35,326 bases of DNA, taken from positions 1-35,326 of the forward strand of contig NZ_MPPI01000047.1 of the NCBI RefSeq assembly GCF_001895925.1. The letters are read 5' to 3'. Each line of letters opens with the position of its first letter. Position 1 is the stretch's first letter. Source of the stretch: Phormidesmis priestleyi ULC007 (lineage in GTDB: Bacteria > Cyanobacteriota > Cyanobacteriia > Leptolyngbyales > Leptolyngbyaceae). Shown piece by piece: positions 13,364-14,830 of this stretch. Under the pieces are notes generated by a model. It searched no databases, was not told the origin of the DNA, and was given only the letters and a program-made list of their open reading frames with translations. The position numbers and the translations under genes are program-made.

Positions 13364-13688
13364 GCAGTTACTCCACAAAACGGCAAACGGATATGAGCAA
13401 GATTCAGTAACTCTGATCTTGAAACCTTTACAAATTTTAACAAACGCTTCGTTACTATACACCTCTCTAGAGGCTTATAGCTATCGCTTGAAAATCATCG
13501 ATAGTTTTCGTGTAATCATTCAGTTACGATTTCTTTAAACTCACTTGTTCTTTTACAGCTTTCATACTAGGGAGTTCATTGTTCCTCGCTATCCATCTCT
13601 AGAACTAATCTATTTGCGATTCTAAAGACTGATGTTTTAGTGAGTTTGACAAATAGACTCCTTCAAAATGAACATTTAGGTGAGACTT
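13364..13688. other. Upstream region of crtW
   Basis: AT-rich region that must hold the minus-strand crtW promoter. No coding sequence of quality, and no palindrome stands out until the multi-hairpin element at 13689. A minus-strand reading frame from ATG 13462 continues into crtW but lacks family similarity in its first 33 codons. Confidence 0.5.
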
Positions 13689-13862
13689 AGATCTTGCACC
13701 TCTCGCAACAACCGCCCAGAACTGAAGTTCCTGGCTGATCGCTCAAACCCATTGAAATGGGTTGAAACCTCTTCTCAGTCCTCTTCAGAGGACTTTGGCG
13801 ATCAGCCCGAATTTTAATTCAGGGTGGGTGATTGGGAAATCGTTGAGACTGGTGCAAGATCT
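13689..13862. repeat. 174-bp multi-hairpin element with inverted ends
   Basis: Ends AGATCTTGCACC (13689-13700) and GGTGCAAGATCT (13851-13862) are perfect inverted repeats, with partial pairing continuing inward (TCTCGCAAC against GTTGAGA). Inside are four hairpins. H1 is 13716-13734 (CCAGAACT/AGTTCCTGG). A closing stem, CTGATCGC (13735-13742) with GCGATCAG (13798-13805), encloses H2 at 13746-13763 (AACCCATT/AATGGGTT) and H3 at 13777-13794 (AGTCCTCT/AGAGGACT). H4 is 13806-13824 (CCCGAATT/AATTCAGGG). H1, the closing stem and H4 abut without gaps. It has no coding capacity. It may be a palindrome-rich mobile element or a structured RNA upstream of the SDR gene. Confidence 0.8.
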
Positions 13863-13990
13863 GAGGAGAGCTACTTTTCAACACCTTTGCCAAGTCGGCG
13901 AAGTATGCCGCGAATATCCAACAAAAGTCAGACGACTTTCAAACTCGATCGCGCACACTAAAAGACAGTCCCTCTCAAACGGCAAAACTG

Positions 13991-14830
13991 ATGGCTCCCA
14001 CCGTTTTGATCACAGGTGCCTCTCAAGGCATCGGCAGAGCAACCGCGCTTTTGTTTGCTCGTAATGGTTACAATCTTGTCCTAGCCGCGCGTCAACCCGA
14101 TCGTCTAGAAGCTTTTGTCCAAGAACTTAAAAGCCTCAGCTATTCAGCGATCGCCATTCCTACAGACGTTAGAGATCCGCAACAGGTCAAAAATTTAGTG
14201 CAGCAAGGATTGGCAGAATATGGCTCGATCGAGGTGCTGATCAACAACGCCGGAATTTATGCGTCTGGCCCGGTCGATAGCTTCTCATTAGAAGATTGGC
14301 ATCAAACGATCGACACCAATCTCTGGGGTTATATTCACACCATTCATGAATTGTTGCCACATTTTATCGAGCGAAAGAGTGGCACGATCGTTAACCTCAG
14401 TTCGATTGGCGGCAAAGTTCCTGTGCCTTATTTGGTGGCTTACAATACTAGCAAATATGCCGTTACTGGCTTGACCCAATCGCTGCAATCAGAGCTTGCG
14501 CCCAAAGGAATTAGCGTGTGTGGCATCTATCCCAATCTGATTAGAAGTGATTTGATGGAGCGGGCAATTTTTAGAGGCAAAACTGAGGACGATGTAGCGG
14601 CGCGTCGTCAACAGCTTGAGCAAGTTCTCAGCGTGCCAGTAGTTGAAAAGCCCGATGATGTTGCCAAAGCAATTTGGGATGCTGTAAAACACAAACGCGC
14701 TGAGACGATCGTCGGCTCTGCCAATTTATCGATCGCTTCTAATCGGCTGTTTCCCGATCTGATGCAGTGGGTATTTAGACGCACCTTCAAGAACAAAGAT
14801 CAGGATTATGGCACCTCGATCGAGGGATGA
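13991..14830 (+). CDS. Short-chain dehydrogenase/reductase
   Basis: 279 residues, soluble, classical SDR. The Rossmann loop TGASQGIGRA lies at residues 8-17, NNAG follows in the middle, the catalytic Ser is in VNLSSIGG and the Tyr/Lys pair in YNTSK. The LVLAARQPDRLE segment, with Arg after the second strand, suggests NADP(H) preference. The C-terminal extension (residues 230-279) resembles SDRs acting on lipophilic alcohols or ketones. Its position near crtW and the polyene oxidoreductase makes a carotenoid or retinoid-like substrate conceivable, but this is inference. The start is ATG 13991, without a good ribosome site. It is separated from crtW by the multi-hairpin element. Confidence 0.9.
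   Translation: MAPTVLITGASQGIGRATALLFARNGYNLVLAARQPDRLEAFVQELKSLSYSAIAIPTDVRDPQQVKNLVQQGLAEYGSIEVLINNAGIYASGPVDSFSLEDWHQTIDTNLWGYIHTIHELLPHFIERKSGTIVNLSSIGGKVPVPYLVAYNTSKYAVTGLTQSLQSELAPKGISVCGIYPNLIRSDLMERAIFRGKTEDDVAARRQQLEQVLSVPVVEKPDDVAKAIWDAVKHKRAETIVGSANLSIASNRLFPDLMQWVFRRTFKNKDQDYGTSIEG

Follow-up and report, generated by a model that had tools for sequence, protein, structure and literature searches.

We found that a 180-bp structure at 13686–13865 of the window (the whole stretch of DNA that was analyzed, 35,326 nucleotides of contig NZ_MPPI01000047.1 from Phormidesmis priestleyi ULC007) is a MITE, ordinary apart from its core. Taken as a whole, it is very probably explained by a MITE with IS701-like ends that is moved in trans and carries a cyanobacterial passenger core, which has been recombined with the ends of unrelated insertion sequences. 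The usual view takes MITEs to be reduced copies of a single parent insertion sequence. The presence of one structured interior under unrelated ends, with different duplication lengths and in many cyanobacterial genera, makes the exchange of transposon ends directly testable. Within the open-licence literature, the MITE that carries the core belongs to what is known, and the widespread passenger core under unrelated ends appears new; judged by title or the start of the abstract, that literature yielded no description of a hairpin core common to different MITE families.

Limits and Parts of the Element

The original prediction, made from the sequence alone, had placed four hairpins with inverted ends at 13689–13862. 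All of the named parts were present at the checked coordinates (Table 1), and the element proved to be slightly longer. Its terminal inverted repeats are 15 bp with one mismatch (written as ends CTTAGATCTTGCACC and CTCAGATCTTGCACC), and the 12-bp perfect ends AGATCTTGCACC and GGTGCAAGATCT are located at 13689–13700 and 13851–13862, respectively. The target-site duplication GAGA is found on both sides, and the 180 bp contain neither a transposase gene nor any other gene of their own. The element is situated between divergent genes, a minus-strand gene with a fatty-acid-desaturase domain (initially read as crtW) and a plus-strand SDR gene. Its core is quasi-symmetric and consists of H1, a closing stem holding H2 and H3, and H4. 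The stems had been described as directly abutting; H1, the closing stem, and H4 do adjoin, but two bases of the closing stem also belong to H1 and two to H4, and the helices therefore compete as well as abut.

Table 1. Parts of the 180-bp element and its flanks, in window coordinates
Feature	Position	Strand	Basis
Left target-site duplication GAGA	13682..13685	+	Flank comparison; only one (A/G)AGA at this place in sister genome G001
Left terminal inverted repeat CTTAGATCTTGCACC	13686..13700	+	Common to the IS701-like element in L059 and other copies
Four-hairpin core (model R1)	13712..13828	+	117.8 bits, E 3e-29; the sequence itself is in the R1 training set
Hairpin H1	13716..13734	+	Coordinate check; conserved arm hairpin
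Closing stem, 5' side	13733..13742	+	Coordinate check; four of its pairs nearly invariant in the alignment
Hairpin H2	13746..13763	+	Compensatory changes (helix 3 of the alignment)
Hairpin H3	13777..13794	+	Compensatory changes (helix 4 of the alignment)
Closing stem, 3' side	13798..13807	+	Coordinate check
Hairpin H4	13806..13824	+	Coordinate check; conserved arm hairpin
Right terminal inverted repeat GGTGCAAGATCTGAG	13851..13865	+	First 24 bases inward identical to the IS end in L043
Right target-site duplication GAGA	13866..13869	+	Flank comparison

Dispersed Copies, an Empty Site, and a Partner Element

A BLAST search of the same genome with the 174-base query gave 24 matches, which were dispersed. 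Seven copies, including that in the window, cover 169–174 of the 174 query bases at 89–100% identity, with an eighth match reaching 133. Contigs C62 and C69 hold two of the seven; their flanks are identical, and they may represent a single locus that was assembled twice. An exact 4-bp duplication was present in 13 of the 22 copies of the window end type (CTYAGATCTTGCACC), counted as listed loci with both ends found at no more than 3 mismatches; the other nine have no exact 4-bp duplication, one showing 5 bp and one 6 bp. When the flanks of the window copy were joined, they matched sister genome G001 in one piece (query positions 16–766, 76% identity), and the junction there carries no insertion and a single AAGAGCT where the joined window reads GAGAGCT, that is, an empty site. 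The element is thus short, has terminal inverted repeats and a target duplication but no transposase gene, and occurs in dispersed copies with an empty site, as a MITE does. The suggestion of a tandem-hairpin mobile repeat, one of three readings offered at the outset, is borne out by these dispersed copies, many with target duplications, and by the empty site.

An autonomous partner with the same ends, apart from one end base, was found in the same genome: the 1295-bp element at locus L059, with ends CTCAGATCTTGCACC and CTCAGATCTTGCACT, nearly identical to those of the window element. The Pfam model DDE_Tnp_1 hits its 398-aa protein above the cut-off (44.8 bits). Among NCBIfam models, this transposase scores best with IS701, at 65.7 bits against a curated cut-off of 150, so the family name is provisional. 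The partner is flanked by GTAA and TTAA, with no exact duplication; the IS701 family has a YTAR target preference. In addition, the right end of the window element is identical to the IS end at locus L043 over 24 bases, nine of them beyond the inverted repeat. With the IS701 family the window element thus shares its ends and the 4-bp duplications (13 of 22), and it differs in lacking a transposase gene and in having a partner transposase that scores below the family cut-off. Judging from the ends and the duplications, the IS701-like DDE transposase of the same genome most likely moves the 180-bp element in trans, with a 4-bp duplication. Four contigs of this genome (C8, C59, C68, and C73, at loci L043, L055, L061, and L064 of G000) have the IS701-like end at a distance of some 470 bases from the contig start, as expected where a repeated IS breaks an assembly, and copies of the IS701-like element are probably collapsed and undercounted in the draft.

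Spread of the Core in Cyanobacteria

Many of the matches cover only about query positions 24–140 and have different flanks. We built a covariance model of this shared core, R1, from 32 aligned sequences; 36 cores were picked from 84 loci, and L086, L099, L123, and L125 were dropped from the alignment as near-duplicate or degenerate. In its own genome, R1 gave at least 60 matches over both strands, corresponding to about 30 places, among the best 150 of 1770 candidates scored. Whether copies are dispersed or tied to one locus had been named as a check, and the core is dispersed. In a class-wide sample, R1 matches at E ≤ 0.001 were present in at least 56 of 145 genomes and at least 38 of 87 genera, with at most 25 candidates scored per genome. 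A phylum-wide sample, which overlaps the first, had matches in 44 of 194 genomes, and the one match labelled outside the class was weak (E 4e-4). A pattern scan of GTDB contigs listed at least 80 loci; of these 80, 79 were titled cyanobacteria and one an Anaerolineales MAG. The R1 model lets a large class of cyanobacterial intergenic repeats be named and counted.

At L278 4061–4219, on the contig titled as an Anaerolineales MAG, an element with ends AGCACGCAAATGTTGTCA encloses a GC-rich core relative (66.7 bits), which reflects either horizontal spread or a binning error. A core-like stretch also occurs at L533 1501–1605 on the Allocoleopsis franciscana plasmid pMIC7113.01, with 78% identity over 91% of a core query. 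This plasmid is typed as conjugative and is a possible route for the core between strains. One query of phage records did not find the core. Tandem, closely spaced copies of the core were seen at L110 (genome G022) and at L168 and L121 (G016).

Unrelated Ends around the Same Core

The core is located inside MITEs with at least five end sequences other than those of the window element. For five of the six end types, target duplications of 4, 9, 5, 3, and 9 bp were found, and these differing lengths imply different transposases. Counting the listed loci with both ends found within the mismatch limit, the CTGRTTGACTGACAAA ends show an exact 9-bp duplication in 11 of 25 elements, 22 of which contain the core (9 of the 22 exact); the elements without the core are two MITEs and one 1287-bp IS4-like element. 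The TAGGACTTACGCA ends show a 5-bp duplication in 19 of 32 elements, 28 with the core (15 of 28 exact) and four with other interiors (all exact). A 3-bp duplication accompanies the GAGRRTGTTTGAAAAGT ends in 3 of 6 elements, and a 9-bp duplication the CATTGGTGTCAACTTAA ends in 2 of 4, three of the four having the core. The CTACCGTGTACACACAAGTC ends occur at five loci in three genomes with no clear duplication, and further ends were seen at single loci (L262, L263, and L278). Other cores lie without ends that could be recognised. Of the end types around the core, only two yielded an autonomous partner whose transposase frame is open; the TAGGACTTACGCA ends yielded none, the candidate at L494 having no ORF of 90 aa.

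The TAGGACTTACGCA and CTGRTTGACTGACAAA ends also enclose other palindromes (L499–L502), and because the same ends surround other palindromes, these mini-elements look generally modular. Elements of 93 bp with TAGGACTTACGCA ends, exact 5-bp duplications, and other palindromes inside were observed at L501 66–158, L502 73–165, L495 153–245, and L496 48–140.

We then compared 45 hand-picked cores (a set that excludes L232), and these sorted by their ends only in part. In the Pseudanabaena genome UBA1465, the core with TAGGACTTACGCA ends (L290) is 88% identical to the cores with GTGTACACACAAGT ends (L286 and L317), and it is 87–89% identical to cores with its own end type in three other genomes, which is as close as to the GTGTACACACAAGT cores. 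The core under CTGRTTGACTGACAAA ends in genome G014 is closest (78%) to cores of the window genome that lie under other ends. Other pairs do sort by ends (L310/L264, 88%; L318/L323, 85%; L167/L171, 90%), and in several genome pairs core and ends stay together. From these sequences, core and ends appear to keep company for a while and then swap partners. The core would thus be a cyanobacterial passenger module that has repeatedly been combined with the ends of unrelated insertion sequences, and different transposases would spread the same core. The simplest and likeliest route for the exchange of ends would be template switching or gap repair at the palindromic core.

Conservation of the Hairpins

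As RNA, the 174 bases fold at -85.5 kcal/mol compared with a mean of -48.5 (sd 4.2) for shuffled sequences (z -8.8; 0 of 200 shuffles as low); as DNA, the fold has a z of -8.0 against shuffles. The minimum-energy fold that was computed forms a single long, imperfect hairpin that holds two inner ones, unlike the separate hairpins that are conserved across relatives. In the hairpin comparison, the H1 arm taken alone formed a hairpin that outdid at least 99 of 100 shuffles in 66 of 81 cores, and the H4 arm did so in 60. One long stem was rejected as the conserved structure, since the arms pair better with each other than with those of other cores in only 43 of 81 (p 0.08). Because H1 and H4 each fold alone and the arms are not clearly paired together, the description as four hairpins represents the conserved state.

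In the MAFFT alignment, 96.0% of cells were paired compared with 88.5% in shuffles, and cells changed on both sides numbered 62 compared with 19.0 (0 of 500 shuffles as high), where the shuffling leaves relatedness in and the structure was partly derived from the same alignment. Sliding the partners by one column lowered the pairing to 44–49%. The number of pairs with a change on both sides (nine, reached in 75 of 500 shuffles) and the number of pair types (80 of 500) were not exceptional. The changes fall mainly in H2 and H3. As the closing stem barely changes, it is uninformative either way. The covariance search across cyanobacterial genomes, the first check named with the original prediction, found the core in many of them, and the alignment of cores shows compensated changes in H2 and H3.

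These compensated changes support the earlier view that the near-perfect stems imply selection on structure, although template-directed palindrome correction could also leave this pattern. A related alternative takes the hairpins as by-products: such correction would keep the palindromes of mini-elements perfect, and the shared core would mark common descent only. G-U intermediates are rare beside the compensated changes in H2 and H3, as this alternative expects, and other palindromes occur between the same ends. That G-U intermediates are rare agrees with a DNA structure, with a need to fold on both strands, or with the correction of palindromes. Against the by-product explanation, many genera have kept the architecture as well as some of the sequence, which goes beyond what the correction of palindromes would need by itself, and we regard this explanation as somewhat unlikely.

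Possible Effects of the Core on the Host

The core may also affect the 3' ends of host transcripts. The core might be a structured RNA or a 3'-end element with a host function, such as a bidirectional end signal or a transcript stabiliser, that was picked up and spread by MITEs; we consider this unlikely. To compare gene orientation, we removed the repeat entries of L202, L205, and L206, which left 96 placed copies and six without usable flanks or inside an ORF. Of the copies without ends, 7 of 62 lie between divergent genes; the figures are 11 of 34 where ends are present and 22 of 77 among the remaining gaps of these loci (p 0.015 and 0.020, uncorrected). In these counts, copies with ends too diverged for a score of 20 count as end-less, gene orientation rests on an ORF heuristic, and the copies are not independent. 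That end-less copies are rarer between divergent genes is suggestive only of a role for the core, and the purging of insertions from promoters accounts for the bias without any function.

Over six orthologous sites, 53 of 996 core positions differ, against 162 of 1666 and 151 of 1793 in the two flanks, totals that leave out one repeat comparison (L400 and L275 are the same genome); but core divergence was lower than in both flanks in four of the nine distinct comparisons and intermediate in the remaining five. The core at site S173 is located between convergent stop codons, and among five relatives one has the core, three have a short hairpin, and one has neither. Intrinsic terminators are likewise hairpins, and at this one site the core sits where relatives have a short one. 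The window copy itself, however, lies between divergent genes, no terminator was called in its region (0 sites at 13450–14010), and the element has no T-rich tract.

A fuller version of this proposal holds that the core is an independently selected module, found with at least six sets of ends and outliving them, that hosts keep as a strand-symmetric hairpin at transcript 3' ends in bacteria without Rho; we hold this to be distinctly unlikely. According to a 2026 study (PMC13289151), hairpin-plus-U-tract ends are found at only 22% of transcription units in cyanobacteria. If hosts do keep end-less copies, this would bear on how cyanobacterial transcripts end.

Could the Core Move by Itself?

We also considered that the core is itself mobile and enters the middle of existing MITEs, perhaps with palindromes as its targets, which would make the end types hosts and not vehicles. 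In the Pseudanabaena-type genus, most of the listed matches resemble the query in the core and hardly anywhere else; this, together with the cores that lack recognisable ends and the short core-less elements enclosed by TAGGACTTACGCA ends, is what such mobility would produce. However, at the sole clean empty site resolved for an element with ends, the ends are missing together with the rest of the element. One of the relatives at site S231 retains a right end similar to TAGGACTTACGCA, an indication that copies lacking ends are MITEs that have decayed. Moreover, no duplication was seen by eye at the core's own borders, and no enzyme has been linked to the core. Movement of the core by itself is accordingly improbable, and a passenger carried by different MITE ends remains the preferred reading.

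For end-less copies in the Pseudanabaena-type genus, the empty-site comparison was not clean, and at L174 the relatives differ by a fuzzy intergenic stretch; the search with joined end-less sites covered the first six of 14 built sites plus 21 bases of the seventh (1989 of 4592 bases). At site S229, the orthologs within one genus (L406, L396, L397, and L398) carry either the core or long palindromes of a quite different kind, as though such sequences gather at the site.

Relation to Known Elements

Two further identities offered for the structure lack support. Palindrome-associated elements of the IS200/IS605 type are not known to have inverted ends or to make a target duplication, so a mover of that type is not supported for an element with inverted ends, a 4-bp duplication, and ends shared with a DDE (IS701-like) element. 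A structured RNA bound to the SDR leader is not supported either, since the SDR locus of the sister genome lacks the element and the core occurs at many other places in the genome. An Rfam search of window positions 13500–14000 gave nothing above the gathering score, its one match reaching 18.9 bits against 95.

REPIN/BIME sequences (PMC3733652) are likewise dispersed intergenic palindromes in inverted pairs and have been reported in cyanobacteria too, but they have a tagged hairpin foot. We rejected this identity because neither the GTAG nor the CGTC tag, nor their complements, is found in the 180 bp, which have DDE-type ends and target duplications instead.

MITEs with structured interiors are already known, as stated in a review (PMC10969869). 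The cyanobacterial MITEs Nezha and those of Anabaena sp. 90 (PMC3542288) are, like the window element, short and non-coding, with inverted ends, many copies, and strong secondary structure. In the description of the Anabaena sp. 90 elements, with which we compared ours by description only, an interior common to different end types is not mentioned, and the MITE ends are said to have no evident match in the insertion sequences of that genome (PMC3542288). One MITE group is drawn there with three sets of inverted repeats (PMC3542288), and the Anabaena sp. 90 MITEs could contain the core described here.
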